Assembly: GCA_022606425.2 (NCBI GenBank)
Contig: JAHDVF020001501.1
Coordinates: 496,001 to 560,000 of the forward strand
DNA from: Lepidostoma basale
Lineage: Eukaryota > Arthropoda > Insecta > Trichoptera > Lepidostomatidae
Direction of reading: 5' to 3'
DNA: 64,000 bases
This document shows, piece by piece, positions 1,520 to 61,600 of the stretch; the first letter of the stretch is position 1; the number at the start of each line of letters is the position of its first letter. The position numbers and the translations under genes were made by a program. The notes beneath the pieces are model-generated. The model ran no database searches. It was not told where the DNA came from and was given only the letters and a program-made list of their open reading frames with translations.

Positions 1520-1800
1520 TAAACTTTGTTACAACACTAAGTTAAATTTTTTTTAAATTAAATATCAGACATGTTTCGGACAACCCGATCGTTCCTCTGT
1601 GATATTATAAAGATATTTAAAATATTATAAAATTGTTATGATCAGTTTTGACAGATGTTATAAAGATTTATTTTGGAACATTTATGCTTTTGTTATAACA
1701 CATATTATGAATAAATTTAAAATAATAATTTAAAGTTCTTATTGGTGTTCAGGTAATTACTTACAACATAGAAAATAAATCAAAGATTAAAAAAACAAAT
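1520..1800 (-). repeat. HH-D repeat with hammerhead-like motif
   Basis: This is a single arm of the HH-D repeat, also found at 27820-28115, 52985-53490 and 61095-61600. The ribozyme-like motif at about 1562-1608 on the minus strand reads CAGAGGA (expected CUGANGA, so U4 is changed), then a GGAC-type stem II, then GAAACATGTC. Sequence complementary to UGAUAU on both sides would form stem I. Probably inactive because of the core change. Confidence 0.55.
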
Positions 1801-1908
1801 AATAATAATAAAATAATAAATCTAAATATTTAATTAACACTAAATATACAGATATTATTTTTTATTATTATTTTTTATTTTTTTATCTTTGATTATAATT
1901 GAAACAAC

Positions 1909-2155
1909 GACCTTCGTGGCCGAGTGCCATTGACTGCCACCCCGAAGGTTCTGGGTTCGATTCCCGGCAAGAGCAGTGTGATTGTCACACAATCTTTGGT
2001 CTGGTGTAAGATTTACGTGACAATAAAATGGCGATAGATTATCTATCACATGTCATGAGAATCACTATGATAGCTATAATATCCTTTACATCGATTTGGC
2101 TCATACTGTCATGAAGTAAATAGCGATTCAACAACAATAATAATAATAATAATAT
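1909..2155 (+). repeat. SINE-1 (tRNA-derived SINE)
   Basis: The head resembles a tRNA, with a shortened A box (GGCCGAGTG; about 8 nt are missing compared with other copies) and the B box GGTTCGATTCC. A conserved unrelated body follows (ACAATAAAATGGCGATAGA and so on), ending in an AAT microsatellite tail. Transcription would be by RNA polymerase III from the internal boxes. Seven other full or partial copies lie in the window. Confidence 0.85.
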
Positions 2156-2694
2156 TTAGTGAATAATGTTTATTTCTTTGTTTATGTAAAATAAATATTT
2201 ATACAATTTTTTTCATGAAAGTGGTCTGTTTAGACATTTATTAAAATGAATATTTTTGAACGTTTATGCATTTGTTAACTATTATTTTAAATAAATAATT
2301 AAGATTTTATTGTTGTTATTATTTTTATTTATTCAATTATGGCATGGTAGTGTGCTACTTTTCACGTGAATGCAAAGCAAATCGAAGGGGTGCAAACGTA
2401 AGAAACTTGAACAACATTTCGCGAGTTCTCTACATTATAGTTGGTATCAATGCGGAGACACCAGAGGGAACAGTGTGGAGAGGAACTACTCGTAATGCAA
2501 CTTCTGTAACTGAAATCCCAGAACATCAACCGAGATAATAATCTGTTATGTACGTGATCCCAATGGAAAAGGGCCAACTCCCTTTGAATATATACGGTGT
2601 ATACGTGTATACTCGTGCTTATGTATTACATACTATTATAATATATGCAAGGAAAATAATACGAGTATTATAAAAAATATAATTAAGCCTATAG
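2156..2694. other. no recognised feature
   Basis: AT-rich to about 2340, then a more complex stretch to about 2590 with a 64-codon open frame from 2344. That frame shows no motif, signal peptide or splice support, so I do not call it a gene. Confidence 0.35.
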
Positions 2695-2840
2695 AAAAAA
2701 AGTTAAGATGGCAATGAACAATGGTATGCTTGTTCCGACCTGTACGTATGTAAGTGAAACATGGAACTGGTAAAAGAAGGATGAAATTGGAATAAATCGT
2801 TCTAACTACGCTGTATGAACAATGTGAATGAGTATTTCTG
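2695..2840 (+). mobile_element. RTE-1 fragment, internal
   Basis: Reads as a decayed version of the segment MAVHNGVLVPTLMYGSEAWN of RTE-1, with an internal stop after the NW dipeptide. It is truncated at both ends and has no tail. Confidence 0.7.
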
Positions 2841-2924
2841 AAAAATGATTTGTGGAACCTTTTGACACCGATGAGACCATAATGTTACATAATATAATAT
2901 GTATTTTTTTTAATTAAAACTTTT

Positions 2925-3165
2925 ATTTCTACTAATAATATTAGTTAATTAATACGAGTTAAAACATCAGTTTTCTAGAAGTTTTATTATATTAAATGGG
3001 ACTGACATGTTTCGCCCTTCTAAAGCAGTATCAAATGTGGTACATCCCATAAAATATAATAAAAATTAGAGAAAACTGGCGTTTTCGTTCGTTTTGTTTA
3101 TTTAATATGAAGATTTACACAATTGTTCAAGAAACAATAAATTTAAGTATTTTCAACTAAAAAAA
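2925..3165. repeat. HH-A foldback repeat
   Basis: An inverted-repeat element whose outer arms contain TTCTAGAAGTTTTATTATA and whose inner arms contain ATGACATGTTTCGCCCTTCT. Read on the minus strand, the inner arm gives a degenerate hammerhead core (UUGAUAC, hairpin, GAAACAUGUC). About a dozen relatives lie in the window. Confidence 0.7.
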
Positions 3166-3169
3166 TTTT

Positions 3170-3580
3170 TTTTTGTGAATGTATACTTATACTTGTATAC
3201 GAATACTGGATTTCACCCATGGTGGGTGATTAATTCATGAAATTTAATTGTATCTCAATAGAGACGAAGACGCAACTGGAAACTGAATATGGTTGATCAA
3301 GGTGTTTACAGAACTTATGACTTGTCATTGGTTGGGTTGAGCGCACGCTTTATGTAATTACAACATTCCCCATTCCACCTATTTCTTTATGACCATATAA
3401 GACATTTGTCTTACATGGTCATAAAGAAATAGGTGGAATGAGAAATGTTGTAATTACATAAAGCGTGCGCTTTACCCAACCAATGACAGGTCATAAGTCC
3501 TGTAAACACCTTGATCAACCATATTCAGTTTCCAGTTTGCGTTTTCATCTCTTTTGAGATACAATTTAATTTAAAAAATA
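3170..3580. repeat. FB-K foldback element, near-perfect palindrome
   Basis: Two arms of about 160 bp meet near 3409. The outer ends read TTGTATCTCAATAGAGACG and its inverse. The arms carry GACCTGTCATTGGTTGGG and AATTACAACATTCCCCATTC. An upstream module (TATACTTGTATACGAATACTGG) is shared with other FB-K copies. No coding capacity; it looks like a non-autonomous foldback DNA transposon or MITE. Confidence 0.75.
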
Positions 3581-3769
3581 TTTTGTTAACCTCAATTTGT
3601 CATCAACTTCAATCTCGTTTCGTACTGTCGTCTGTTAACTATTATATTATTTTTTCTACGTGTTTTTTCTAAATCGCTGTTACCCTTTATAAATAATTGA
3701 ATGGGTAGAAATATAATATCCTAGATGAATATGTGGTTAAAATCTGTAAACAAAAGAGTATCAAATACA

Positions 3770-3905
3770 AATATAAGTAGTGAATGCAGTGCGAATGAAT
3801 GTGTTATTTGAACAAAATAATGAAAATATAGTTTAGATTGTTTGGATACATTGAAAGAATGAATGAAGAAAGTATGTGAAAACGACGTGACTGAAAATTG
3901 AAAAT
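3770..3905 (+). mobile_element. RTE-1 fragment, interrupted
   Basis: Matches the RTE-1 part coding for SECGANDGVMNKIMKGSLRWFGHMER-like sequence, with several lesions. A further short RTE-1 piece (coding for RKTWHDQI) at about 4180-4215 suggests one copy was split by the HH-B repeat between them. Confidence 0.6.
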
Positions 3906-3998
3906 TTTACATAAATATTTGAAGATTATTTTTATATAGAATCATGTTTACCACCCCTGATCTGTATGTATATAAAGGACTAAGTTTACAATAGTGTT

Positions 3999-4137
3999 AC
4001 CAGTCTGTCGATGTCAGCGAGCCTGGCAAAACCGGTCGCTGTCTAAATAAAGACAAAAGTGGAAGTAGTTAAAAAGCATCGTTTTATTTAATTATTATTT
4101 AAAATAAACTTCCATCAAGAGATTTCAGTAAAATCAT
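3999..4137 (+). ncRNA. HH-B repeat with hammerhead-like motif
   Basis: The motif at 4001-4041 reads CAGU, CUGUCGA, U, a 5-bp hairpin (GUCAG/CUGGC), AAAA (expected GAAA), the palindrome ACCGGU, C, GCUG. CAGU and GCUG can pair as stem I. The core position normally A6 is U in all four good HH-B copies. Downstream come ATAAAGACAAAAGTGG and an AT-rich tail. Activity is doubtful. Confidence 0.45.
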
Positions 4138-4330
4138 TCGATTATCTTGAAATTACCCTATTAAAGGTTAACGAAAGGTTAGAAAGGCAGAAGAAAACGT
4201 GGCACGATCAAATCAAAACAATAATAAAAACATGAAAATATGCAATCGTATATAGTTTTAGATAAATATTATAATGTAATTTATCAACACATCCCATGCT
4301 TACACGTAATTGAAGTATTTTAAATAATAT

Positions 4331-6095
<1,765 letters not shown>

Positions 6096-6265: not shown

Positions 6266-6281
6266 TTAAAAAAAAAAAAAA

Positions 6282-6340
6282 CTAACCATCACGCCGTCTG
6301 CCGAAAGCGTAGGCAAAAACAATGGACTGCCACACTTTAA
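6282..6340 (-). mobile_element. RTE-1 3' tail fragment
   Basis: About 58 bp of the minus-strand RTE-1 terminus: CTAA remnant, ACCATCACGCCGTCT, then the inverse of the VWQSILSAYP coding region. An extreme 5' truncation. Confidence 0.7.
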
Positions 6341-10060: not shown

Positions 10061-10160
10061 TGTTTGTTTAGTTATTATACTGCTCTGATGAAGCTTGGGT
10101 CCAAGTGAAACTAGTTGGCATCAATATAATAACCCTACCGTGGTTAAATACAAAGTTGTT
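10060..10160 (+). ncRNA. HH-I repeat: best-preserved hammerhead-like motif
   Basis: Positions 10081-10120 read UGCU, CUGAUGA, A, a hairpin (CUUGG/CCAAG), a U before GAAA, the palindrome ACUAGU, U, GGCA. CUGAUGA and GAAA match the hammerhead core exactly. UGCU and GGCA pair over 4 bp as stem I. The cleavage triplet would be GUU, which is tolerated but less efficient than GUC. Stem III is a 6-nt palindrome, so a dimer would be needed. Related copies form an inverted pair at 51135-51490. This is inferred from structure only. Confidence 0.55.
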
Positions 10161-14284: not shown

Positions 14285-14603
14285 TTTTAAAATTGTGTAC
14301 AGTAAAAAAATGTGATATTATGTCATTATTGTAAATTTATATTTTTTGTTAAAACATAATTTTATCTACATCAGAGTTCTTTTTTCTTGACATGTTGTGA
14401 AGGTCTTATACTTTCATCACCGAGAGAATGAAATAAATGAACGAAAAATATTTCAAGCAGAATACAGTATGATGTAACACCTACAAAGTTCAATTAAACA
14501 TAAAAACGTAGTACGAGTTGAATCATAAAATATTAATGATGTTTCATGAAATCTCTCAGAAGAAGCTCATTGTAAGTCGCAGATTTATTATTATTATTAT
14601 TTT

Positions 14604-14650
14604 TCATCAGAAGATGGCAGTGAGCTGCAGAAACCGGTAGAAGCTTGATA
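14604..14650 (+). ncRNA. HH-H hammerhead-like motif
   Basis: CAGAAGA (U4 changed to A), U, a hairpin GCAG-UGAG-CUGC, an A, GAAA, the palindrome ACCGGU, A. The sister copy is at 16222. It lacks a canonical CUGA turn, so activity is unlikely. Confidence 0.35.
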
Positions 14651-14664
14651 AACGAATAGAATTA

Positions 14665-14900
14665 TACTCATTAATTGTTTCTTGAACAATGATGTAAAAC
14701 TTCATATTAAATAATTAATTCGAATGAAAACGTCAGTTTTCTAGAAGTGTTATTATATTTTATGGGAATGACATGTTTTGCCCTTCTAAGGCATTATCAA
14801 ATGCCTTAGAAGGGCGAAACATGTCATTCCCATAAAATATAATAAAACTTCTAGAAGGACTGACGTTCGTAAGTATTATTTATAGGTTAAAATTGTATGT
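14665..14900. repeat. HH-A foldback repeat, best palindrome
   Basis: Two arms of about 95 bp meet near 14800 with almost no spacer: CCCTTCTAAGGCATTATC and its inverse. Each inner arm carries GAAACATGTCATTCCC or a one-base variant. The outer arm contains TTTTCTAGAAGTGTTATT. No coding capacity. Confidence 0.8.
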
Positions 14901-15936: not shown

Positions 15937-16189
15937 CTGCGTGGGAACAAATGAGTCAATATTAATATATGATTCACTCCAGGGGACCATTCACTGTAAG
16001 AATCGCATTACTCCCTGGACTAGTTAGTTATTCCAGGGACCATAATGCTGGCGATTCATGAACACCCTCTATAGATTTTCGTGTGAAGCACTTGATTTAT
16101 AGTGTGGCATTATCAAAAATAAAAAATAAAAATTGTGTATATTAATAATGAAAATAAAAATAAAAACATGTATTTCTTTTTAAATGCGT

Positions 16190-16270
16190 ATCTAATTAAA
16201 ATCGGTTTCGGTTTGGTGAACCAGAAGATGGTAACGAGCTACCGAAACCGGTCGAAGACACAAACATTAG
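16190..16270 (+). ncRNA. HH-H hammerhead-like motif
   Basis: CAGAAGA at 16222, U, a hairpin GGUA-ACGAGC-UACC, GAAA, the palindrome ACCGGU, C. Upstream, the inverse of the GAAACCGAT segment lies within 20 bp, giving a small foldback. U4 of the core is A, as in the copy at 14608. Confidence 0.4.
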
Positions 16271-16414
16271 CAGATTTTAACTTAATATATATTTTAAAAA
16301 TACATGTATGTTTTTTTATTTTCATTATTTAAAATGAACCATGAAATTTCAAAAAATATTTTTTTTTAAACTTTGGTACTTAATTTCTACACCACTTAAT
16401 ATTATTTTTCATCC

Positions 16415-22044: not shown

Positions 22045-22250
22045 AATTAATAAAAAAATAGTGTGAATAGATTATTCCACATAATATACTTAGAAAATTT
22101 AAAATAACTTTGTTTAATCCACAAAATATTAAAAAACACGACATGTTTCGGAGGATACCGAGGATCTTCAGGTGTAAAAATATAATAAATACTAAACTAA
22201 AAAATACTATAATAATATGAAAAAGCATTTAAAATTCGATACAATAATTT
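22045..22250 (-). ncRNA. HH-C repeat with hammerhead-like motif
   Basis: The motif at 22136-22175 reads ACAC, CUGAAGA, U, a partly mutated stem II, GAAA, the palindrome ACAUGU, C, GUGU. ACAC and GUGU form a 4-bp stem I. CUGAAGA fits CUGANGA exactly. Sister copies near 44741 and 46950-47380 show the full GGAGG/CCUCC stem II. Confidence 0.5.
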
Positions 22251-22459: not shown

Positions 22460-22715
22460 TGTAGACAAACTATTTATTGTTTCTTGAACAATGATGTAAA
22501 ACTTCATATTAAAATATTAATATGTATGAAAAAACGATATTTTTCAAGGAGTTTTATTAAAATATTTATGTATGACATATTTCGCCCTTTTAAGGCATTA
22601 TCAAATGTCGCATTTGACAATGCCTTAGAAGGGCGAAATTTATCACACATAAATATTATAATAAAACTCCTTGAAAACATTAATTTTTTTCATACATATT
22701 AATAAGTAGACAAAG
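22460..22715. repeat. HH-A foldback repeat
   Basis: Arms contain TGTTTCTTGAACAATGATG and TTTTCAAGGAGTTTTATTA (the right inverse near 22655-22690). The inner arms read CGCCCTTTTAAGGCATTATC and its inverse. It lies about 100 bp downstream of the signal-peptide exon in the host intron. Confidence 0.72.
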
Positions 22716-27715: not shown

Positions 27716-27819
27716 AACAATCGGTTATTTTAAGAAATGATATGAAAATAAATCCTAGGAGCCCATACGGTGATTTCATAAGATGTTTCTTCTCTTATTT
27801 AAATAAATTTAACGTCAAG

Positions 27820-28115
27820 TCCAATCTTTGATTTATTTCCTTTGTTGTAAGTAATTACCTGAACCCCAATAAGGACTTTAAATTATTATTTTAAATTTTA
27901 AATTGAATCATAATATTTGTTATAACAAAAGCATAAACGTTCCAAAATAAATCTTTATAAGATCTGTCAGATCATGTAAACAACAACAATTAAATAATAT
28001 TTCTAAAAATTTATCTTTACTGAAGAAAGACTGTTTGTTCGAAACATGTCTATATAATTTTATTTTTTAATATAAGTGTTGTATATACAAAGTGTATAAA
28101 AAAGAAAAATAGAAA
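27820..28115 (+). repeat. HH-D repeat with hammerhead-like motif
   Basis: A single arm, with TAACAAAAGCATAAACGTTCC upstream. The motif from about 28014 reads CUGAAGA, A, a weak hairpin (GACUGUUUGUUC), GAAA, ACAUGU, C, UAUA. The core is intact; stem II is eroded. Confidence 0.5.
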
Positions 28116-29584
28116 TAAATCATAAGATGTTTTTTTATTATTATTATCCGAAAAAAATATTTATCTCGGTACTGTCATGACGAAAGCCAATACAATGCAC
28201 GCGGAATTAGAGCGATAAATATATTAACCATCTATTTTTTCATAAATTATTTATTGATATTTCAACAATATAAAAAAGTTAAATTATATTTAAAAAATCC
28301 CAAATCCAAAAAAGTGCATGCCGGCAAAGGGGGGGCTCACAAAAAATATTACCCCTGGTTGGCAAGATTCCAGTCCGTCTAATGATTTAAAAAAAACATA
28401 TTTAAAATTCTTGAAGAAGGACGTAGTTATCACACTACGTAGGAAAATTAAAAAAAACTCGTAAAATTGCGGCGACTAGAAAATATTTTTTTTTACTTTT
28501 GCACTATTTTTTTTCAACTTTCGAATTTTTTTTAAAAAGTTAAAAATAAATATTTCAAAAAAATATATTTTATGCGATTAAAAATTATATCAAGAAGCTC
28601 TGTACAATTTTTCAAGTAAATCGGTACATTAGAACTTGAGTTATCATGCCAACCGTATCGAGTAAAATCTATAATATGTCGCTTAATGGTGTGTTACAGC
28701 GATTCCAGTATTATATAATGTTCGACCTCCTATGAAGTTGATTTCTAATGATTTATTAAGTACAAAAGAGTTTTCATAATACGGGCTCTTCACCGATATG
28801 CAAAGTTTGCAAGTCGCCTATAGTACGAGTACATAGGTCCAGTCCGGACCGATTAAGTCGGTGCGTCACAAAAAAAGCGTAACTTTTATTTTTATATATA
28901 TCCTAATATTTTTAAAGGTATGAACTTTATAAATATGAAAAAAAAACTTTTTTTTTACAATACCCCCTTAAAGAACAACAAATAATCTATTAATGTATAA
29001 ATATGATATAAATATTGATTTCAGGACCCATATCTGGTGTTGTAGCGGGAATTTGGAGCCATAAGAGCAATTAAGAGATCTGTATAAAGATCCGCTGAGA
29101 GCCGGTCGGAGTCAAAGGATCTGCTGGAAACCAAAGGCGCAGGATCAAGAAACCAGAAAGAACATCATCAAGACAGATTACACTCTCCAAAAGTATACAG
29201 CCATCTTAAGTAAGTGTTTAGAAAGTACTTACATATATCTGCCCAATACACATTTTGAGGTTATTATATGTTATTGTTAGAAATACGTTAACATTAACTG
29301 TGAAGATCACTTTTTATCATTACACACGGTACGATATCTAAATAAATGTGAAATATAATACGATATCAAATATTCCTCACTTGTCAACACTGTGTTCAAA
29401 GAAGTTTTAAAATAACAACAAAATAAACTCGACTATATTTTTCGTAAAATCAATTCAATGATGAAATATCATAGACATTAGTATGCAATCAAAATAATGT
29501 CTATCTTTATAGAATATTTTGGTATGAACTTGTGACAATAATTAGTTGCAACATATTTTAAACGCAAGTTCAAACATGATTAAT
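28116..29584. other. no recognised feature; possible non-coding exon
   Basis: AT-rich with long A/T runs. A segment at 29025-29207 is bounded by TTGATTTCAG and GTAAGTG and is richer in G+C, but all three plus-strand frames contain stops. At best an untranslated or lncRNA exon. Confidence 0.3.
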
Positions 29585-30440: not shown

Positions 30441-30444
30441 TGTT

Positions 30445-30830
30445 TTTTCCGATCTTGGAAAAATCCGTGTAACTCATCTTTCTCGACCGACATTTCAGTG
30501 ATCGTTGCAGTCTCCATCTTCAGGGTAGTTAATAATAATATATAATAAATTGGACGATTTATAGAACGCCATTTTTATGAAGTACTTATCTCAAGGGCGC
30601 TGTAGAAAATGCTCCGTTTTATGAACTAGTTAAAAAAATAAAGATATTGAGTATGAGGGCTGCACTCAACGTAGTATTTTTATCTGGAAAGGATAATTTG
30701 AAAAGGTGCGTTTTGAGTCTCGATAGAATATAGTCATAAATACCTTGAAGATGGAATCTGTAACGATCTCCGAAACGTCGATCGAGAAATACAAGTTACA
30801 CGGAGTTTTTCAAGATTCTAATAAACATTG
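30445..30830. repeat. HH-F foldback with paired hammerhead-like motifs
   Basis: Left arm on the minus strand (30481-30530) gives ACC, CUGAAGA, U, GGAGA loop, a mutated return strand, GAAAUGUC, GGU. Right arm on the plus strand (30741-30795) gives UUGAAGA, GAUCUCC, GAAACGUC, GAUCGAG. The consensus has a GGAGA/UCUCC stem II, an ACC/GGU stem I and the palindrome ACGU. The copies are inverted about 215 bp apart. Confidence 0.45.
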
Positions 30831-32324: not shown

Positions 32325-32560
32325 CATAATTAATACGAATGAAAACGTCAGTTTTCAAGAATTTTTTTATGTTTTATGGGAATGACATATTTCGCCCTTC
32401 TAAGGCATTATCAAATGTAATTTAAATGTCATCTAAGGCCTCAGAAGGGCGAAACATGTCATTCCCATAAAATATATTAAAACTTCTAGAAAACTGACGT
32501 TTTCATTCGTATTAATTATTTTATATGGAGTTTTACATAATTGTTCAAGAAACAGTAAAC
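32325..32560. repeat. HH-A foldback repeat
   Basis: Arms of about 95 bp with TTAATACGAATGAAAACGTC outside and CGCCCTTCTAAGGCATTATC inside. The right arm carries GGGCGAAACATGTCATTCCC intact. One of the least decayed copies. Confidence 0.78.
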
Positions 32561-35199: not shown

Positions 35200-35254
35200 T
35201 AAACCACTTTATTTTAAATAGTCAATTGTTTTGGCCAAAACGAAAAAAACTTTG

Positions 35255-35400
35255 TTTCATGTATCACAATCGTATTTTTATTTTACGCGACAGCTGCTTC
35301 GTCAACCTATGTTGACATCATCAGGTGTTACAATAATATTTCAAATGTCAAATTTTTGTGATTTTTCGAACCTTAATGTATATTTGTTCCAATGTCAATT
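35255..35400 (-). ncRNA. HH-E repeat with hammerhead-like motif
   Basis: The motif at about 35284-35330 reads CAC, CUGAUGA, U, a perfect 6-bp stem II (GUCAAC-AUAG-GUUGAC), GAAG (last A of GAAA changed), CAGCUGU, C, GCG. The core CUGAUGA is exact. The palindrome in other copies is ACAGCUGU. Confidence 0.5.
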
Positions 35401-35539
35401 TGAATAATTTCTTTGATATAATTTTGAAGTTCTTGCTGGAGTTGAGTTAGGTCCCTAATTATTTTAATTAAAAGAAAGGTTATAAATAATCACAGCTTAT
35501 TCCCCATTAGTATATAGTACATTAAAAACTTTTCCTCTT

Positions 35540-35650
35540 TATTTGACATTTTGATATATTATTGTAACACCTGACAATGTCAACATAGGTTGAGGAAACA
35601 GCTGTCGCGTTTACATGTGTATTACAATCGCGGTTTGCAACCCTAAATAA
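35540..35650 (+). ncRNA. HH-E repeat, inverted partner
   Basis: The motif from about 35566 reads CAC, CUGACAA (G8 changed to A), U, GUCAAC-AUAG-GUUGAG, GAAA, ACAGCUGU, C, GCG. It is the mirror of the copy at 35284-35330, about 240 bp away. Confidence 0.48.
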
Positions 35651-36949: not shown

Positions 36950-37430
36950 GTTAACGCAAAGGCAAAACCAACATCACTTCAAAATTATATCAAAGAAATT
37001 ATTCAAATTGACAGAGGAACAAATACACATAAAGGTTCGAAAAATCACGAATATTTGACATTTGATATATTATTGTAATACCTGATGATCAGTGGCGGTA
37101 CTCCCATGAAGCCCAGTAGCCCGGCTTGCGTAAGACATTTAGAATCAAAGCCCCCAAATCTAAGTAATCGTGCCCCCGCATAAACAAACAACCCACCAAA
37201 TCACCTTCCAACAATGTTCCCATCAGACGTAAGAGGAATAGCCACAAGAACTGAACCTCTGTAAGCCAGAAGAGGCTTTGCTTCAATATTTCTTACGCAA
37301 GCCGGGCTTCTGGGCTTCTATGGGAGTACCGCCACTGCTGATGATGTCAACATAGGTTGACGAAACAGCTGTCGCAAAAAATAAAAATACAATTTTGATA
37401 CTCATACATAAAACAAAGTTTTTCTATTTA
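36950..37430 (+). repeat. HH-E repeat interrupted by a hAT MITE
   Basis: The left part ends at CUGAUGAU (37082-37089). The right part resumes after the target duplication with GUCAACAUAGGUUGAC, GAAA, ACAGCUGU, C, GC. Removing the insert and one duplicate restores the same motif as at 35.3 kb. Confidence 0.75.
37090..37337. mobile_element. hAT-type MITE, 248 bp, 8-bp target duplication
   Basis: Terminal inverted repeats start CAGTGGCGGTACTCCCATG and match over roughly the first 45 bp on both sides. The 8-bp duplication CTGATGAT at 37082-37089 and 37338-37345 is the hAT hallmark, as are the CAGTGGCGG ends. No transposase. Inserted exactly into a hammerhead-like core. Confidence 0.9.
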
Positions 37431-38816: not shown

Positions 38817-39965
38817 TTAGGTCCTTACATATGAAATTGGCGTTTTGCCGCACTGGCAACTTTGATCTCAAATATCTTCTCTTTGGTTAGGAATTCCAAA
38901 TTAAAATTTATACAGCTATTTACTCAAGTATTTGTGTTTTGAAAATTATAATTCATTTGTTTTTTCCTCAATTGTTTTTTTTCTTTGCGTCACTTAGTTT
39001 ACAAAATGGAAAACTATATCGCGTTATTTACGAGTACGAGTTCCACCGTGGCACCAGTGCTGCAGAAACGGCTCGAAGGATTAATGGTGTGTATGGCGAC
39101 GGTGCCGCAAAAGAAAACACAGTGCATTTTTGGTTCCAACGTTTTCGTTCTGGAAATTTCGACCTGCAGAACAAGCCCCGTGGACGGCCGGAGACCAAAG
39201 TTGATAATGAAGAATTGAAGGCTATTGTGGAAGCGGATCCATCGCAAACCACGTCCGAGTTAGCTGCAGGCTGCGGTGCTAGTGATAAAACTGTTTTAAT
39301 CCACTTGAAGCAAATTGGGCAGGTGAAAAAGCTTGAAAGGTGGGTACCTCACGAATTGAGTGAAGCAAATCAACAAACGCGCGTTGACTGCTGCGTTGCA
39401 TTACTCAACCGGCACAATAATGAAGGGATTTTGAATCGAATCATTACCTGTGATGAAAAGTGGATCCTGTATGATAATCGGAAGCGCTCATCGCAATGGC
39501 TGAACCCTGCCGAACCAGCCAAACCATGCCCCAAGCGAAAATTGACTCCAAAAAGTTACTTGTGAGCGTTTGGTGGACTAGTGCTGGTGTCGTTCACTAC
39601 AGTTTTCTTAAATCTAGCCAGACGATTACGGCAGATGTCTATTGTCAGCAACTGCAAACCATGATGGAAAAGCTAGCTGCTAAACAACCGAGGCTGGTTA
39701 ATCGCTCTAGGCCACTGCTGCTTCATGATAACGCTAGACCACACACTGCACAACAGACGGCTACCAAATTAGAAGAGCTTCAATTGGAATGTCTAAGACA
39801 TCCACCGTAGTCTCCGGACCTTGCCCTAACAGATTTTTTTTTTTTTCGAAATTTGGATAACTTCTTGCAAGGGAAAAAATTCAACTCCGATGGGGCATGT
39901 GTGTTAATTAAAAAATCATCAAAAATTAATGTTTTCGAAGAATTTGTTTCATGATTTAAAGTCTG
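38817..39965 (+). pseudogene. mariner transposase, second copy, frameshifted and 3'-truncated
   Basis: Same mariner as at 4331-5191, opposite orientation. It begins with TTAGGTCCTTACATATG next to TA. The start region (ATG at 39006) has a 4-nt deletion relative to the other copy, putting the Met out of frame. Helix-turn-helix, WVPHEL and ITCDEKW (first Asp) follow. One A is missing in the run after LTP (five instead of six), causing a -1 frameshift. The next frame then gives LLHDNARPHTA (second Asp) to RHPP, where YSPDLA has become stop-SPDLA. The third Asp lies 35 residues after the second (34 between), the D,D34D spacing of mariner. The 3' inverted repeat is absent. Dead. Confidence 0.93.
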
Positions 39966-44060: not shown

Positions 44061-44740
44061 GTTAAGTTAAAAGCATAGGAGGTTTCAGCGTTTATCGCAG
44101 GTCACAAGTAATCATACATTAACAGTATTATGTACTCGTGATGGAGCGTGCGCCTGGACGTCGATAGCAGCTGGGGCTGATGGCTCACTGGGCAGTAGCG
44201 TCGGTCGGCGGGAGCGAAGACTCGTCGGAAGTTACGCGGCGTAGCAGTGTAGACGGTTGCGTAGCTCGGTAGGAGGGTCGGAGGTTTTTCGTACGAGACT
44301 TGATGGCGTAGACTCGTGTCGGTTAGAAGTCGCAAGAAGGAATACTGTCCATGGTGGTCGGCTGTACCGCTTTTATATGCTTTGCTTCCATTTTTACACG
44401 ATGCTCTGCTCTAGTGACCTAGTGACCTGTGTGAATAAAATCTGGGCCCCGATTCGTCACTTTTGATAAGGACGTTTTCGGCTATTCGTGTAATATATTT
44501 CATCATGAAATATGCCGATTCAGCAGTCGAAGTCCGCTTATATGGGTTATGCATTTAACCCCGACATCTTCTTCTGGATCTACTCCACTGAACGATATCC
44601 TCTATTTCGCAAGTTTTTCTTATGTTTACGTTGCGGACACGATCTCGGGAGAGTTTTTCCAGTAATTGATCTTAGGACCTTCATATTTTCCACTTTAATT
44701 TATTAAATATCTTTATACAGTAAAAATAAAAATAATAAAA
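44061..44740. other. no recognised feature; GC-richer island
   Basis: The island at 44130-44340 is GC-richer (GATGGAGCGTGCGCCTGG...). Open frames on both strands lack motifs. It may be a conserved element or the end of an unknown repeat. Confidence 0.3.
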
Positions 44741-44830
44741 CACGATAATGTTTCGGAGGCGACTTCCGTTTTCAAGTGTGAAATGTGTACACCTGAAGAT
44801 GGAGGTTACCTTAAAAAAATTACCATGTTT
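44741..44830. ncRNA. HH-C head-to-head motif pair
   Basis: Minus strand (44741-44781): CUUGAAA-like decayed core, stem II remnants, GAAAC, AUUAUCGUG. Plus strand (44788-44830): ACAC, CUGAAGA, U, GGAGG-UUA-CCUU, then the GAAA is lost. Only a few bases separate the two, forming an inverted pair. Confidence 0.42.
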
Positions 44831-44849: not shown

Positions 44850-45183
44850 ATTTGAATAACTTTTTGGAAACATTGTATTTTCACAACACTTTTTTCCACT
44901 TTTCACAAACATGTTTCAGGACACAAACTTCCCTTCTTCAGTGTTTGAATTTTATCAGTAAAATGATGTTGAGTTCTTACTTATATAATCAAAGACGAGT
45001 GAAAAAGTGAAGGCGGGGAAATTTTTAATTTAGCGGCAGGTTAAATTGTTGTTTTGTTGGAATTATCAGACTGGGGAAATCAATTAATTATGGGACTAGA
45101 AGTTAAGTTTAGTTGGTTGTTTATAATATCGTGTTTACAAGAGGTGTTGTAAAAATACAATGTTTCCAAAAAGTTATTCAAAT
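44850..45183. repeat. HH-G element with 40-bp terminal inverted repeats
   Basis: Ends match at 39 of 40 positions (ATTTGAATAACTTTTTGG...). Near the left end, the minus strand at 44904-44947 carries ACA, CUGAAGA, a stem II that pairs AGGG with UCCU, GAAA, ACAUGU, U, UGU. ACA/UGU can form stem I. Here stem II pairs directly next to the core, unlike other families. 334 bp, no frame. Confidence 0.6.
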
Positions 45184-46949: not shown

Positions 46950-47380
46950 AGGGCATTAACACTGTGGAATTCCATGGTAATACACTTAGGAAATTGAAAA
47001 TAACTTTGCTTATTTTCCACAAAATATGTAAAAACACGACATATTTCGGAGAGGGTAGAACACCACAATTTATATCTTGTGGGTGCCCCGCTAAAAGAGC
47101 CCAAGAGGCAGACAGAGGAAAAGATAGGCGGATTGCGTGGAAAAAGATTGAGAGAAAATGGAAGGAGCTGGGGAATAGAGGGAGATGGCAAGAGACAGAA
47201 GTCAGTAGAGGACCTTTGTGGAGGAGGCCAAATCAAAAGCGCCGAGAAATGAATGAATGAACATGTTTCGGAGGATACCTCCATCTTCATTTGTAAATAT
47301 ATAATAGAAACTAAACAAAGGAGTACTAATTTAAAAAACGCATTAAAAATTCTATACAATAATTTTAATTTAAAATATAT
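46950..47380 (-). repeat. HH-C repeat interrupted by NLR-5
   Basis: The minus-strand motif reads GAAGA, U, GGAGG-UAU-CCUCC (perfect 5-bp stem II), GAAA, ACAUGU, then, past the insert, CGUG. The NLR-5 piece lies inside the core with a 13-bp target duplication. Confidence 0.72.
47052..47260 (+). mobile_element. NLR-5 non-LTR fragment, nested
   Basis: RVEHHNLYL, shifted to CGCPAKRAQEADRGKDRRIA, WKKIERKWKELGN, ending in GAATGAATGA. Flanked by ACATATTTCGGAG (47039-47051) and ACATGTTTCGGAG (47261-47273), a target duplication with one later change. Confidence 0.85.
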
Positions 47381-50269: not shown

Positions 50270-50610
50270 TTTGAAATAATAATTGAACAAAACCATGTTT
50301 TTGACAACAACTTCCACATTTGTCTTTATTTCGACAAGATATATAAGGTTCCCACCACCACCCGAGACTGTTATAGGACGCAGCGACGCCCTTTCGTCAG
50401 TCTCGCTGCACTATCTAGGCCTGTTCCTTGTCCATCCGGGACTTACGTTAATTTAATTTAGCCTTTTCTTGTCATCAATCAAAAGGGTGACAGACCACAT
50501 TTATTTCGTCTGCGACCATCTCTCTTTATTTCGACAGCGACCGGTTTCGCCAGGCTCGCTGGCATCGACAGACTGGTGACACTGCCATTCACTCTCTTCT
50601 TTATTTACTC
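50270..50610 (-). ncRNA. HH-B repeat with hammerhead-like motif
   Basis: Minus strand at about 50534-50580: CAGU, CUGUCGA, U, GCCAG-CGAGC-CUGGC, GAAA, ACCGGU, C, GCUG. Stem I CAGU/GCUG and stem II pair fully; only A6 of CUGANGA is not A. Another HH-B piece (ACATTTGTCTTTATTTCGAC) precedes it at 50310-50340. Confidence 0.5.
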
Positions 50611-50790: not shown

Positions 50791-51089
50791 TGGTCAAAAC
50801 ATTTTTTAATATTATTAAATTTTAAATATTTGCCGTGTTTAATCTGATCAATAATTGCCTGTTTGATTGGACATTTTTTTAGTGAGTTTGGAAAAATCAG
50901 TTGTTTCTTGTAGTTTTTTTTAATTTCATGCACGTTTTCAGGTTCTTATCAATAAAATTGATGATATTTTTTACTCAAATATTATTTAATTAAAATAAAA
51001 TAAATGTCATTTGTCGTATGAGGCATTCACTTTGTGGTAAGATATTTAATTTTTTTATAATATTATCTATATTTAAAATAAAATTAAAA

Positions 51090-51545
51090 TAAAAACACTG
51101 CACTTTGTTTTTCACCACTATGCGGTTATTGTAATTGCTGACTAGTTTCGCTTGTACCCAAGCTTCCTCAGGGCTTCGTAATAACAGAACAACAACACAG
51201 ATTATCATGTATATATAGTAGATAGAAATTCTATTATATTTTAAATATAAATAATATATATAATATAAAGAATAATTATTATTTATATTTAAAATTTTAT
51301 TTGTCGACAGGTATGCCAGGACAGAGCATTGTGGTGATACATCCTCTCTGCCTACCCCTCCGAGGAAATGGCGTGATGGTAAGTTAGTTTTTAGAATTTC
51401 TGTCTACTATATATACATGTAAATCTGTGTTGTTGTTCTGTTATTACGAAGCCCTGAGGAAGCTTCGGTACAAGCGAAACTAATCGGCAATTAAAATAAC
51501 CACATAGTCATGAAAAACAAAGTGCAGTGTTTTTATTTTTATTTT
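51090..51545. ncRNA. HH-I foldback with two hammerhead-like motifs
   Basis: Minus strand (about 51135-51178): GCC, CUGAGGA, A, a perfect 5-bp stem II (GCUUG-GGUA-CAAGC), GAAA, ACUAGU, C, AGC. Plus strand (about 51447-51490): GCC, CUGAGGA, A, GCUUC-GGUA-CAAGC, GAAA, ACUAAU, C, GGC. The plus copy pairs GCC/GGC as stem I. Outer arms (ACTTTGTTTTTCA... and inverse) show it is one inverted-repeat element. The spacer contains an RTE-1 tail. Confidence 0.58.
51310..51390 (+). mobile_element. RTE-1 tail inside HH-I foldback
   Basis: VCQDRALW-stop, HPLCLPLRGNGVM and a TTAG remnant: about 75 bp of the RTE-1 terminus between the two HH-I arms. Confidence 0.75.
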
Positions 51546-51654
51546 ATTTTAAAAATAATTAAATAAATATATTTTAAACGTGCCTTTCGTGGAGCCGCAC
51601 TATATTAGCCAAAGAGCCGCCATTGGCTCGCGATCCGTGGTTTGCTGACCTTTG

Positions 51655-52984: not shown

Positions 52985-53490
52985 TTCTTTTTTATATACT
53001 TTGTATACAACAATAACTTATTTAACAAATTAAAATTAAATATCATACATATTTCGGACAACCCGGTCCTTCCTCAGTGATATTATATAGATATTTGAAT
53101 TTTTTTTTTTTAATGTATACAAATACTTGTAGACAAATACTGGATTTTACGCATTACGGGTGTATTAATCATTAAGAATTAATTGTATCTCAATAGAGAC
53201 GAAGATGTAAATTCGAAAATTTAAATGTGTAAATGTCGAGGCGTTTATAGGACGTCATTGGTTGGGTTAAGCGATCGCTTTATGTAATACAACATTCCCC
53301 ATTCCACCATTCAACGAACAGCACGTCTGACAATTATTTGAACCAGTGACAGGTCATAAGTCCTGTCAACGCCTCGACCACCATATTTTGTTTCCAAATA
53401 ATTTACATATTCGTCTCTAATGAGATACAATTGATTCTTATTTTAAAATTGTTTACAAATATGATCAGTTTTGACAGATGTTCTTTTGTT
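52985..53490 (-). ncRNA. HH-D repeat interrupted by FB-K, strong hammerhead-like motif
   Basis: The minus-strand motif at 53039-53084 reads AAUAUCA, CUGAGGA, A, GGAC-CGGGUU-GUCC, GAAA, UAUGU, A, UGAUAUU. Stem I AAUAUCA/UGAUAUU is 7 perfect pairs, the longest in the window. Cleavage triplet GUA is permissible. The C after GAAA is U, which weakens the palindrome. The element resumes at about 53440 after FB-K. Confidence 0.58.
53115..53435. repeat. FB-K foldback nested in HH-D
   Basis: TATACAAATACTTGTAGAC module, left arm from TTGTATCTCAATAGAGACG, right arm ending in the inverse near 53432. HH-D sequence on both sides continues in register (GATCAGTTTTGACAGATG follows). Confidence 0.75.
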
Positions 53491-55689: not shown

Positions 55690-55810
55690 CACGCGTAGAG
55701 ATTTTGTCTAATTTCATCGTTGAAATTTCTTCACTGAGGAAGGGACATCTGTGGCCCTGAAACATGTTTTTGAATAGTGCAAAAAGTGTTTGTGAAAATA
55801 CATGGTTGTC
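55690..55810 (+). ncRNA. HH-G hammerhead-like motif
   Basis: CUGAGGA at 55734-55740, stem II AGGG...CCCU directly adjoining the core, GAAA, ACAUGU, U. The core is exact and stem II pairs fully, but I find little stem I pairing in this copy. Confidence 0.45.
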
Positions 55811-56984: not shown

Positions 56985-57130
56985 TTTTTACCACCCCTGA
57001 TCACAGTCTGTGTATGCTAGTGTCAGTGTCACAGACTGTCGATGCCAGCGAGCCTGGCGAAACCGGTCGCTATCGAAATAAAGAAAAAAGTGGAAGTAGT
57101 TAAAAAACATCGTTTTATTTAATTATTATT
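56985..57130 (+). ncRNA. HH-B repeat with hammerhead-like motif
   Basis: Motif 57032-57072: CUGUCGA, U, GCCAG-CGAGC-CUGGC, GAAA, ACCGGU, C, GCU. Then ATAAAGAAAAAAGTGGAAG and AT-rich tail, as at 3999-4137. A6 of the core is U. Stem I is weak in this copy. Confidence 0.45.
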
Positions 57131-57204
57131 AAAAATAAAATAATTTGATTTCGCAACATCTGTGAAATCTGTAATTTAAAAACGATGATTTTTTTAACAA
57201 TACC

Positions 57205-57260
57205 TTAGCATGACGAAACATATCATTCCTATAAAATATAAAAAAATCTTCTAGAAAATA
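57205..57260 (+). repeat. HH-A fragment
   Basis: CATGACGAAACATATCATTCC then TCTTCTAGAAAATATACG: the inner right arm and start of the outer arm. Confidence 0.5.
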
Positions 57261-57379
57261 TACGTGTGAATTGATATGTTTCAATCAGTATTAGTCCATT
57301 GTTTTGGTCGAAACCCTATGATTCGAGTACTTCAACATTATTAACTGTTAAAATATAAAAGGCTGTTTATGCTATCACT

Positions 57380-57475
57380 TTTTTTTCGCGACAGATGTTT
57401 CGTCCACAAAATGAATACCTGATGACTTTTATATCGGCTGACAAAACAGCTGTCGCGAAAAAGAAAATAAACGAT
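57380..57475. ncRNA. HH-E inverted motif pair, compact
   Basis: The plus side (57415-57470) reads UAC, CUGAUGA, a decayed stem II, AAAA, ACAGCUGU, C, GCG. The minus side (from about 57410 back to 57386) gives GUGGAC, GAAA, ACAUCUGU, C, GCG. The CGCGACAG and CTGTCGCG ends are inverse copies. Confidence 0.45.
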
Positions 57476-57484
57476 AAAATAATA

Positions 57485-58171
57485 ATTTTTAATTGTATCT
57501 CAATAGAGACGAAGAAACAAACTGGAAACTGAATCTGGATGATCAAGGTGTTTACAGGACTTATGACCTGTCATTGGTTGGGTTAAATTAACCACCCACA
57601 GGTGAAAATCCAGGATTCGTATACAGATATAAGTATACATTTCACAAATATTTGTAAATATTCTGGTCAATTATTTGGCAAATAAAATAGGAGTGGATAC
57701 TCCAGGCGACTTCTAACAGTGCGCTAGGAGGCGGTAGCCTCTTCGCATTGTGTTAATAAAGTAGTTTGCTAAATGCTAAGCAATCATTCTTCATAGATGG
57801 CGTTAGTGGATGGATTGTATAGATTAATCTTAAAAAAATTAATTAGTACAATCAAATCTACATAGATGGCTAACTGGAACTGCCACGTGAAAATATGTAT
57901 GAATTTGGAGTATATATACAACTTCCAAAAATGTATCATACATGATCATAATAACAATGGTGGAATGGGGAATGTTGTAATTACATAAAGCGTGCGCTTA
58001 ACCCAACCAATGACAGGTCATAAGTCCTGTAAACACCTTGATCATCCAGATTCAGTTTCCAGTTTGTTTCTTCGTCTCTATTGAGATACAATTAAAAATT
58101 TAAATTAACCACCCACAGGTGAAAATCCAGGATTCGTATACAGATATAAGTATACATTTCACAAATATTTG
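57485..58171. repeat. FB-K element with identical 72-bp direct repeats
   Basis: The left arm from 57487 (TTGTATCTCAATAGAGACG) and right arm to about 58091 are inverse copies. A 72-bp segment (TTAAATTAACCACCCACAGG...) is present without any difference at 57583-57654 and 58100-58171. The spacer includes the CATAGATGGC motif pair and a GGCGACTTCTAACAGTGCGC patch. Confidence 0.72.
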
Positions 58172-58249
58172 ATAAAATAATAAATCATAAACAGCATTTT
58201 ATTTTCGTGTTTTTATTCATTTATTTTGTGCATATGTTTCAGTTTTTAA

Positions 58250-58345
58250 TTTAACAATTTAATTAGCCATGGTTGCGCATGCCATTGCAAAGCGAAACAT
58301 GTCATTCCCATAAAACATGTATCATTGTTTAGGAAACAATAAATA
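58250..58345 (+). repeat. HH-A fragment
   Basis: CATTGCAAAGCGAAACATGTCATTCCCATA, shortened: GCGAAACATGTC is intact but the outer arm is lost. TGTTTAGGAAACAATAAAT follows. Confidence 0.45.
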
Positions 58346-58504
58346 AAACGGATAGGGTTAAACTTAAGTCATTACTGATGAAAAAACTATTTTCAATGAT
58401 AGAATTCGATTGCATTTTCTTCTCTTACTTAAGCTTGGTTCTGGTTAGCTTAAGCACTGAACTTAAGTTGAATATTTTGTTTTACGTAGAACTTGCACAT
58501 AATG

Positions 58505-58745
58505 TTTCTTTTTCTTCCTCTTCATCAGCCTGTTGTGGCCGTCCACTCCCGGACGTAGGCCTCATCTTATATTTTCCACTCCCTTCTATCCAGAGCGATC
58601 CGCATCCAGGGACTTCCAGCATTCTTCCGGATATCGTTGAGACAACTCCACGCTTTGCCGTTCTCGGGCATCAGCACACCAGTCACCTTGTCCACTTTTC
58701 ATCTGGGTCACGAGCAACGTGTCCCGCCCAACGCCACTTATGGGT
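58505..58745 (-). mobile_element. non-LTR fragment (NLR, unnamed)
   Basis: Minus strand: WRWAGHVARDPDEKWTR, then a shifted segment with RYPEECWKSLDADRSG and GLRPGVDGHNRLMKRKK, GAAGAAG-type tail. The WAGH.AR....W pattern marks an R1/Jockey/RTE-like ORF end. Confidence 0.68.
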
Positions 58746-59412
58746 TCGTTGTTTTTTGTATACATTATATTTGCCACAGTAAAATAAAGCAATATTTTAT
58801 ACTGTGTCAACTCATCATGTTTTCTTAATTCATTCATTCTAACAGAGCAGCACTGTGAGGAAAAGGTGGATGGCATAGGGATGACGTAAGCAGAGTTTTA
58901 ATAGTGTAAATAACTTCCCGTCGGTTTAAAAAGGGTGAAAATATATCACGTCACAGTTAAATTTTTAAGCCGGGAAAATCGTTTTTTCTTTCGCGAATTC
59001 CATTACCCAGCTCTTTAAAGCAGCCCGAGAAACTAGATTTTTCTAGGTTAATTCATATCCGTGATCAATCACGAATGACTCAAATTGAAAATCTTAAAAT
59101 ATTACTTTCATATTCGGCAAATCGCGTTAGACAGATTCAGATTTGTCATTCCTACATATCTTTATATTTTCTACATGAAATAAAACGAATCTTTTCGGGA
59201 ATATGTTCTTATCTATTATATTTTACTTTAGTGCGAAATATGAGGTAAATATCTGTTGTAAACTTATGTCGAAATCTAAACTTTTTATAAACTTTTATTT
59301 TTTTATGATAAATCGCGTAGAAAAACTTATTCAATTTCAGTTTGGATAAAGTCTAGTGGTTTTTCATCTCGTCGAAAAGTATTGCATTTTAAATATAATA
59401 TATTATACTATA
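58746..59412. other. no recognised feature
   Basis: AT-rich. Nothing recognised. Confidence 0.4.
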
Positions 59413-59580
59413 ATATGAAACTGGAGACCGTGGACGGCACAGAGAAGTACAGGGCGACCGCAACTACGGTGGAAGGATGATCTGAACAGATACGTCGGAA
59501 TAACCTGGATGCAGTCTGCACAGGACAGAGGACACTTTTGTCCAGGATTGGGCGGGAATAGGCTTAAGAAGAAGAAGAAT
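59413..59580 (+). mobile_element. NLR-4 non-LTR fragment
   Basis: RPWTAQRSTGRPQLRWKDDL, NRYVGITWMQSAQDRGHFCP, then GRNRLKKKKN with AAGAAGAAG tail (frames joined by eye). A better copy than 9410-9545. Confidence 0.72.
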
Positions 59581-59691
59581 ATGAAACTAAAATATAATAA
59601 AATATATATTTGTATACAACAGGTCATTTGAACCTTATTTATGTAATATTTTTTTTTTAAATCTATTATATTCATATGTATCTAATCTATA

Positions 59692-59824
59692 GACATTTTA
59701 TTTTCACGTGAATTCTTCACCAGAACAAAGACAGTGTGACAATCACACTGCCATCGTCAGGAATTGAACCCGGGACCTAATGTGCGGCAGTCATAGCTTT
59801 TGCCACTCTGTCACGAATGTCGTC
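59692..59824 (-). repeat. SINE-1, head and proximal body only
   Basis: Inverse of GGTCCCGGGTTCAATTCC (B box) with A box GTGACAGAGTGGC. The 3' body and tail are missing. Confidence 0.8.
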
Positions 59825-59894
59825 AATTCATATTGAGTACATAACGTTAAAAAAAATCACTAAATTATTGTAAATAATCAGTAAATAAAAAAAT

Positions 59895-59995
59895 TGGAAT
59901 CAAATGTTTTTACTGAAATCTCTTGATGGACTTTTGTCTTTATTTCGATAGCGACCGGTTTCGCCAGGATTTCTGGCATCGACAGACTGGTCCGA
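59895..59995 (-). ncRNA. HH-B repeat with hammerhead-like motif
   Basis: Minus strand at about 59948-59993: CAGU, CUGUCGA, U, GCCAG-AAAUC-CUGGC, GAAA, ACCGGU, C, GCUA. Stem II arms are intact while the loop differs from other copies. The 3' body (CAAAAGTCCATCAAGAG) follows. Confidence 0.5.
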
Positions 59996-59999
59996 CACA

Positions 60000-60584
60000 C
60001 CAAAAAAAATGTGCTTAATTTCTTTTATAAAATTGAATTTCATTAACGATTTCTTTCACTGTACTATATATTTTAGTGCACTATTATAAATGTTACTTTT
60101 TGGGTAAAGAATTTCAAAAATCTTTACAAAAATTATTTTTGCGAAAATCTTTACACCTACGCTAACGATACATTATATATTTAAGGTTCTAAGAATGTTG
60201 CACAATATAATCAAAGTCGCACCATCTCCTTTGACAATTCTCTGACATCTATTGAAGAAACGACCTGTAATGACTCCTATTGTACGATGAGTGAAAGAAG
60301 TTCTATTCTGTAAAATGAGTGAGAAAAATATCGCGATACAATAAAGTCAGCAGATTTTTACCTCCTGCATGATATGACCCAAATACATTCAGGAAGAAAT
60401 TGTAACATATTATTTATATTTAAAATGACGCCAGGTTTTCTTCAATTTTCTATGAAAATATCGGAAATGAAATCAAAAGATTGATATATATATATAGTTT
60501 TCATTAAATTGACTTAATATTATAACACTTAATCAACTACTGATCTAATACACTATTACTTGAATGTCGGTCATCTTTATACTC
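60000..60584. other. no recognised feature
   Basis: AT-rich. Nothing recognised. Confidence 0.4.
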
Positions 60585-60589
60585 GATGG

Positions 60590-60865
60590 AAAGTTTTGTT
60601 TGTGTTTTAAAGTTTTATTTCTTTCAATCTGATTGTGAAATGTTAGATGAATATATGTTCCTTGGTCATCTATTTGCTTTTGGAAGCAGGGGTCAAGTCA
60701 AGGAGATTGATAGGAGAATACAGTTCGGTTGGTCTGCATTCGGAAGGCTGGGCAACATCTTCAAGTCGGACATGCCACAAAATTTGAAAACTATGAATAC
60801 CACTTAAAAGATGGCGAGACAGTTGAACAGAAAAATAACAGCACACAGTCCTAAATAACACAGAA
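60590..60865 (+). mobile_element. non-LTR fragment (RTE-like, different family)
   Basis: CEMLDEYMFLGHLFAFGSRG, QVKEIDRRIQFGWSAFGRLG, NIFKSDMPQNLKT. This is the Y.YLG......(K)EI.RRI..GW.AFGRL segment after the palm of RTE-type reverse transcriptases. Both ends are truncated. Confidence 0.82.
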
Positions 60866-61094
60866 GAAGAGTTTTTTGATCACTATTACTCCGGGTTCAA
60901 GGAAAGTGCCTCCACGTGTGGTGTGAGTATAACTATAACAACGACACAAAGTCAGACAAACATTCCACCACAGTGGTAAGAGAAGAAGTTATTTCTAGAA
61001 TCATTCCTACAAAACTAGCTTGCCATTGACATAACGAAGGAGAAAACTATTTCTTCTATATACGCCATACTTTGTGTTGTTATGATGCTTTATT

Positions 61095-61600
61095 TCACTT
61101 TTTCTTTTTTATATACTTTGTATATACAACACTTATATTAAAAAAATAAAATTAGATAGACGTGTTTCGGACTACCAGTCCTTCTTCAGTGATACATATT
61201 ATAAGGACACATTTTAAAAATATTTTAAAATTGTTTACATGATCTGACAGATGTTACAAAAATTTATTTTGGAACGTTTATGCGTCCAATCTTTGATTTA
61301 TTTCCTTTGTTGTAAGTAATATCCTGAACCCCAGTAAGAACTTTAAATTATTACTTTAAATTTAAATTAAATCATGATATTTGTTATAGCAAAAGCATAA
61401 AAGTTCCAAATTAAATCTTTATAACATCTGTCAGATCATGTAAACAATTTAACAATATTTTTTAAATCTTTCTTTGTAATATGTATCACTGAAAAAGGAC
61501 TGGTTGTCCGAAACATGTCTATGTAATTTTATGTTTTTAATGTTAATGTTGCATATACAAAGTATATAAAAAAGAAAAAGTGAAATAAAGAAAACTATAA
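61095..61600. ncRNA. HH-D foldback, about 510 bp, two hammerhead-like motifs
   Basis: Arms of roughly 190 bp (CTTTTTCTTTTTTATATAC... and inverse). Minus motif (61152-61200): CUGAAGA, A, GGACU-GGU-AGUCC, GAAA, ACACGU, C, UAU. Plus motif (61484-61530): CUGAAAA (G8 changed), A, GGAC-UGGUU-GUCC, GAAA, ACAUGU, C, UAU. One motif has an exact core, the other a mutated one. Confidence 0.58.

Follow-up and report, generated by a model that had tools for sequence, protein, structure and literature searches.

Dispersed hammerhead-type repeats in a Lepidostoma basale locus as probable ends of Penelope-like elements

What are the short dispersed repeats in a 64,000-nucleotide stretch of the Lepidostoma basale genome (contig JAHDVF020001501.1, positions 496,001 to 560,000; hereafter the window), and are the hammerhead-like sequences that they carry ribozymes by descent? 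The window is rich in AT and in repeats (GC 0.30-0.39) and is part of a 769-Mb animal assembly (contig C614). An earlier note on this DNA had described nine dispersed families, HH-A to HH-I, that share a dimer-type hammerhead layout. The type I hammerhead has the core CUGANGA...GAAA...UH, and its stems I, II, and III follow one another as type I requires. Minimal type I hammerheads of Penelope-like elements (PLEs) are reportedly the subject of the primary papers by Cervera & de la Pena (2014) and Lunse et al. (2017). PLEs with such hammerheads, with dispersed copies and a proposed dimer action, are described in PMC7761336 and PMC6155905. We conclude, with a probability of about 0.84, that the dispersed repeats are the ends, or pseudo-long terminal repeats (pseudo-LTRs), of several PLE lineages, each with a minimal type I hammerhead.

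Hammerhead layout, core, and covariation

The hammerhead layout is present in the sequence far above chance. A descriptor that asks for an exact CTGANGA core, at least 4 bp in stem II, GAA, an A...T palindrome of 4, 6, or 8 nt, and the base H finds 5 sites in the window, whereas 200 dinucleotide shuffles have a mean of 0.015 and a maximum of 1; if one mismatch in the core is tolerated, it finds 12 (shuffle mean 0.185, largest 2), one of which, 44526 (-), belongs to no family and may be a chance match. When an exact core, at least 4 stem II pairs, and GAA are required but no palindrome, 10 sites are found, five of them followed directly by an exact A...T palindrome of 6-8 nt and four by one with a single broken pair; the remaining site, 24532 (+), is unrelated. 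A set of 23 copies in eight families (A, 5; B, 4; D, 2; E, 3; F, 2; G, 2; H, 2; I, 3), to which a doubtful family J comes as an extra, was built up from the descriptor sites by similarity between copies and by reading (Table 1), and every copy has at most one core mismatch. The dispersed families described earlier are confirmed by these counts: A, B, and D-I could be matched through stem II and palindrome, and family C found no counterpart, palindromic family J being a candidate.

The exact core CUGANGA occurs in at least one copy each of families A, D, E, F, G, and I, and the stem III palindromes of the families (ACATGT, ACTAGT, ACAGCTGT, ACGT, and ACCGGT) are all self-complementary. In 17 copies of the eight families, 76.3% of the cells of the three-helix structure are paired, compared with 29-48% when it is slid by 1-3 columns, and 54 cells are changed on both sides, compared with 24.6 in shuffles; two of the five covariation measures, namely pairs with double changes and further pair types, show no excess over shuffles. 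Stems II and III were used in part to select the copies. Stem I was not used, and taken alone it is 60% paired, compared with 25-48% when slid, with a covariation of 0.49 compared with 0.19. Because the kinship of the copies inflates these figures, we regard them as support, not proof, for covariation of the helices between families, the support for stem I being moderate. A covariance model trained on families A, D, E, G, and I, with B, F, and H left out, recovers its own members together with the unused copies at 28006 (+) (1.6e-6) and 51440 (+) (3.1e-6). Folding energies were set aside; single-sequence folds of 10 copies mostly miss the hammerhead.

Chance or convergent hairpins in AT-rich repeats, without ribozyme ancestry, would be in keeping with those folds, with the weak stem I of many copies, and with the altered cores of B and H. 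The shuffle controls, the palindromes that differ and yet are self-complementary, the covariation of stem I, and the recurrence near PLE genes described below all speak against this already disfavoured explanation, which we consider highly improbable. Most window copies are decayed and would probably be unable to cleave.

The extra A or U reported earlier between core and stem II is present, but in families B, F, G, and H it is the U of an AUG at the foot of stem II, formed with the last core A and the first stem II G, so that the extra base is there part of a possible start codon; an AUG in this position is also seen in the anole PLE (PMC11167929). In A, D, and I the extra base is A, and in family E the frame closes a few codons on. 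In both family F copies (30469-30799), the frame that begins at the stem II AUG crosses the ribozyme without a stop (METATITEMSVEK.. / MESVTISETSIEK..), as though the start of a PLE open reading frame (ORF) had been retained.

An exact ACAAAGT box was also observed 26-41 nt past the predicted cleavage site in families A (5/5 copies), I (3/3), E (2/3), and G (1/2), in 0/2 copies of D, and at this distance in none of families B, F, and H. The box is common to four of five family representatives, with modest statistics: some 7-mer is shared by at least four segments in 76 of 5000 cases when these AT-rich segments are dinucleotide-shuffled and in 5 of 5000 when sets of segments are drawn at random from the window. 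It recurs in the family I tail and could be a start signal for the reverse transcriptase (RT) or a protein-binding signal.

Linkage to PLE genes and element anatomy

A search of the animal's own genome for the PLE endonuclease domain GIY-YIG returned at least 125 matches (best 150 of 542 candidates), and the six close pairs noticed among the matches listed are all -/+. The locus L032 contains a 600-residue ORF with both RVT_1 (2.7e-13) and GIY-YIG (3.5e-5). We examined 55 PLE loci with an endonuclease (the 30 best rows, 10 chosen stretches, and 20 from lower rows, minus the non-matching ones), 26 of them close to the L032 ORF and 29 more distant. At 24 of the 26 close loci, a family B arm follows the endonuclease gene on the same strand at a distance of ~377 nt (372-385 nt), which correspond to 20 of 22 distinct places (L007/L030/L038 are one place and L023/L027/L036 another), and in L032 and L033 an inverted family B end also precedes the PLE body. 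At the more distant loci, a family G arm is found downstream on the same strand in 19/29 and on the opposite strand within the span in 0/29. Family A follows a PLE endonuclease at one clear locus (L054) and family E at another (L061), with a further E arm beside a G arm in L006; with model R1 the hammerheads of L054 and L061 reach 44.2 and 45.2 bits, respectively. One more hammerhead of canonical form, K (CACC CTGACGA A GCTCC..GGAGC GAAACCGGTT GGTG), lies ~290 nt downstream of the endonuclease in L058 and is decayed in L044, and a related end is present at 23/29 distant loci. The RT domain was demonstrated in the family B element; for most others the endonuclease alone was found.

Families B and G are PLE pseudo-LTRs, and families A and E probably are. 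Since these families adjoin PLE endonuclease genes elsewhere in the genome, the window copies are mostly solo, truncated, or head-to-head PLE ends. The proposal that type I hammerheads with a minimal palindromic stem III belong here to mobile elements of the Penelope kind is accordingly supported; the further proposal that the elements are non-autonomous fails for B and G and probably for A and E, and may hold for I, D, F, and H. Nor is the diversity a peculiarity of one locus, as had been suggested: other contigs, too, carry arms of A, B, E, G, H, and I, together with at least one further type, K, and 16 hammerhead families were published for one coral genome (PMC7229834). H-arm matches near PLE genes (L016, L037, L050) stem from the outer part of the copy at 14608, not from its ribozyme, and were left uncounted, as was a family D arm in L035 that lies behind a family B arm.

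The anatomy of the repeats includes the inverted, usually shorter, 5' copy of PLE-type pseudo-LTRs. Families A, E, F, G, and I have head-to-head pairs in the window (Table 1), and the family D piece on the other strand from 44888-44961 indicates a broken pair (44888-45183). The putative target-site duplications of 13 and 10 bp that flank two family A elements were equalled by 1/300 and 5/300 random placements, respectively. Adineta vaga Penelope families likewise have head-to-head ends of which the inverted one is shorter, an optional one-sided tail, and duplications, there of 8-10 bp (PMC3846280); that paper never uses the word hammerhead, and here many copies are reduced to ends. An optional tail of 30-40 bp at one end of inverted copies is a PLE signature (PMC11167929, PMC3846280). 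The 34 bp beyond the inverted family A unit (61051-61084) may be such a tail.

Non-LTR retrozymes, small non-autonomous elements that spread by way of circular RNAs cut by hammerheads and depend in trans on the enzymes of PLEs, share several of these features. Like the newt satellite 2 and axolotl HHR_Amex1 elements, the present families have type I hammerheads, a comparable unit size (306 bp in family A), and low GC, and their stem III of about one pair with a palindromic loop recalls HHR_Amex1, whose stem III is a single pair with a palindromic tetraloop on top and which works better as a dimer (PMC7229834); family I, for which we found no coding partner, would also suit this explanation. 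Retrozymes, however, are described as direct tandem repeats (PMC7229834), whereas the copies here are inverted or single and lie beside PLE genes: neither Tandem Repeats Finder (TRF), which found no hammerhead array in the window, nor the comparison of window copies, which showed no direct tandem, gave such an arrangement, all nine close family I pairs among the best-scoring places are inverted, and B and G are physically PLE ends. We therefore think that the families are unlikely to be retrozymes. Foldback or MITE-type (miniature inverted-repeat) DNA transposons, with terminal inverted repeats and incidental hammerhead-like hairpins, would explain the many inverted-pair copies and the wholly palindromic H and J, but single-ended copies occur, one of them with a 13-bp duplication, the inverted family A unit is shorter than its partner (199 vs 306 bp), families A, D-G, and I have the hammerhead core on just one strand, and arms adjoin RT/GIY-YIG genes. 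This origin may apply to family J; for the repeats as a whole it is decidedly improbable.

The hammerhead layout and the assignment to PLEs also have to be weighed against several results that do not favor them. Rfam 15 identified no hammerhead in the window, either at the gathering cut-off or at E<=5, so the check with the Rfam model that had been proposed came out negative; genome-wide, RF00163 gave a single match above the cut-off among the best 73 of 94533 candidates, outside the window. Only 5/23 copies combine an exact core and an exact palindrome with H and at least 4 of 5 stem II pairs, stem I is weak in many, and two families deviate throughout from the core, B by A6 to U and H by U4 to A. 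Up to E 10, the covariance model lists 4/8 left-out copies (F, 0.036; H, 0.2 and 0.23; B, 1.6). The family G counts are matches to the arm and not always to the ribozyme core, the links of A and E are thin, with arms on the opposite strand in two loci for A (L009, L041) and in four for E (L006, L018, L044, L028), and six of the 29 distant loci lack a recognizable end within 1.3 kb. Families I, D, F, and H yielded no coding partner; for family I, no GIY-YIG neighbor was seen by eye across at least 48 arm and at least 125 endonuclease matches, nor a PLE frame upstream in the three copies read. Finally, among 13 placements tested, no duplication above chance was found at I, F, E, or D. The single RF00163 match lies at L001 1501-1617 (G000:C844:789780-789896) and scores 38.7 bits; read by eye, its core has one inserted base.

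Families B and I

As pseudo-LTR hammerheads, the families resemble those of known PLEs in their position at the start of the ORF, the weak or absent stem III, the ORF with RT and GIY-YIG, the tail, and the dispersed non-coding copies with proposed dimer action. They differ in the number of families and palindromes within one genome, in the family-wide cores CUGUCGA (B) and CAGAAGA (H), and in that cleavage is here predicted only. No report of hammerhead-bearing PLEs in Lepidoptera was found within the limited literature collection searched. The elements are of a known kind, and the families here are further members of it, including a subfamily with an altered core.

In family B, 33 of 36 copies from distinct places have the core CUGUCGA, and A6, a conserved base of the hammerhead core, is present in 0/36. 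Stem II, GAAA, the ACCGGU palindrome, and the AUG at the foot of stem II are retained, and the predicted cut would fall after 27 nt counted from the A of that AUG. The best protein identity of the endonuclease regions to the L032 ORF is 89.7-99.3% (25 loci), from which family B is young, the youngest among those seen. The near fixation of CUGUCGA thus implies that this core works or that cleavage is dispensable. Tentatively, and at somewhat less than even odds, we propose that either the hammerhead tolerates U6 with a PLE protein holding two copies together, or PLEs can move without self-cleavage and the fold persists because it serves a different function, for example in protein binding or in starting translation. 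A review calls the in vivo activity and role of the hammerhead in PLEs a mystery (PMC7761336), and for the anole element PAc, the sole PLE with a purified protein, insertion in vitro still took place with mutant hammerheads, and the protein was required for cleavage (PMC11167929). A young family whose core lacks A6, set beside anole mutants that still insert, makes family B the most telling case.

The family I arm has at least 48 matches genome-wide (best 40 of 1461 candidates), with 87-96% identity apart from the match to itself. With neither a GIY-YIG neighbor nor an upstream PLE frame, family I may be truly non-autonomous. Its pairing is head-to-head in 9/9 close pairs, and 3/7 arms carry an optional outer stretch with TTACCACAAAGTGAATG; both are PLE traits. 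L063, the right L065 arm, and the left window arm have this stretch, whereas L062, L064, the left L065 arm, and the right window arm lack it, as does the divergent copy at 10085.

Feature list, other repeats, and implications

The copies, pairs, and flanking features in the window are collected in Table 1.

Table 1. Positions in the window of hammerhead copies, paired elements, and associated sequences.
Position	Strand	Feature	Details
1548-1619	-	family A hammerhead	core CAGAGGA; ACATGT; stem I 5/5 pairs
28000-28070	+	family A hammerhead	CTGAAGA; ACATGT
53026-53097	-	family A hammerhead	CTGAGGA; stem I 5/5 pairs; broken palindrome
61139-61209	-	family A hammerhead	inverted unit in head-to-head pair
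61469-61539	+	family A hammerhead	direct unit in head-to-head pair
3985-4057	+	family B altered-core hammerhead	AAAACCGGTC
50519-50591	-	family B altered-core hammerhead	
57016-57088	+	family B altered-core hammerhead	CTGTCGA; ACCGGT
59933-60005	-	family B altered-core hammerhead	
44888-44961	-	family D hammerhead	
55714-55788	+	family D hammerhead	
35269-35344	-	family E hammerhead	GTCAAC/GTTGAC
35551-35626	+	family E hammerhead	head-to-head with 35269-35344
37318-37393	+	family E hammerhead	stem I side split off by insert 37090-37337
30469-30543	-	family F hammerhead	CTGAAGA; ATGT
30725-30799	+	family F hammerhead	TTGAAGA; ACGT
22120-22191	-	family G hammerhead	exact core; decayed stem II
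47240-47310	-	family G hammerhead	ATGAAGA; GGAGG/CCTCC
14588-14659	+	family H altered-core hammerhead	CAGAAGA; ACCGGT
16202-16273	+	family H altered-core hammerhead	within palindromic element 16144-16329
10065-10136	+	family I hammerhead	CTGATGA; GCTTG/CAAGT; ACTAGT; U; outer stem I GTTATTAT/ATAATAAC; fullest copy
51120-51191	-	family I hammerhead	inverted unit
51434-51505	+	family I hammerhead	direct unit; broken palindrome
61085-61589		family A head-to-head element	inverted 61085-61283 (199 bp) and full 61284-61589 (306 bp)
61041-61050, 61589-61598		10-bp duplication around family A pair	AGAAAACTAT, left and right
27819-28119	+	single family A unit	13-bp duplication TCATAAGATGTTT at 27776-27788 and 28120-28132
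51068-51557		family I head-to-head element	arms 51068-51233 / 51392-51557, 92.8% alike
51011-51067	-	family I optional tail past inverted unit	TTACCACAAAGTGAATG ending at 51024-51040; outer limit approximate
30441-30827		family F head-to-head pair	91-bp arms, 80% alike
35244-35610		family E head-to-head pair	
44730-44808		family G head-to-head pieces	decayed
45144-45183	+	family D arm piece	40 bp, 97.5%; opposite strand to 44888-44961
37082-37345		inserted 248-bp element	with flanking CTGATGAT

One family E copy (36976-37423) has its core split by a 248-bp element with inverted ends of 63-64 bp (CAGTGGCG...) and CTGATGAT on both sides, which from its 8-bp duplication we take to be hAT-like. 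The copy, at 37338, is among the five complete ones, though the insertion separates its stem I side.

Palindromic family J (GGGCGAAACATGTC) occurs at 14729-14867, 22515-22704, 32326-32519, 63025-63240, and elsewhere. Its right arms (TTGATAA..GCCTTAGAAGGGCGAAACATGTC) could be a U3-A8 version of the core or part of a foldback element; stem I is very weak and the whole element is palindromic, and its status as a hammerhead is doubtful. An element at 57484-58100 has 103-bp inverted ends that are 100% identical, which marks it as recent, and lies beside an E-like hammerhead piece (57380-57475). The window further contains remnants of mariner-type transposases (HTH_48, Transposase_1) at 4331-5056 (-) and 38891-39810 (+), and a palindrome of ~333 bp (3240-3572) that is 92% alike to its own reverse complement; Rfam matches to mir-1 on both strands of 3368-3443 fall inside this palindromic repeat and were not taken as a microRNA gene.

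In the mechanism that we propose for the PLE ends, each pseudo-LTR would contribute a hammerhead composed of stem I, CUGANGA or the altered cores of B and H, an extra A or U, stem II, GAAA, a stem III of 4-8 nt, and H. Within a read-through or multimeric transcript, two copies would pair via the palindrome, forming an extended stem III, and the paired copies may then cleave 3' of H to give unit RNAs; we infer this dimer action from the palindromes. The PLE GIY-YIG/RT protein would insert the unit RNAs, and partial inverted 5' copies would arise during insertion.

Since the Rfam hammerhead model saw none of the window copies, PLE ends of this sort are likely undercounted, and if the altered core of family B has the meaning suggested above, there would be a class of altered-core PLE ends that Rfam does not see. 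Intact, altered-core, and decayed hammerheads, with varied palindromes, stand here beside the same kind of enzyme and amount to a natural experiment on the role of the hammerhead.

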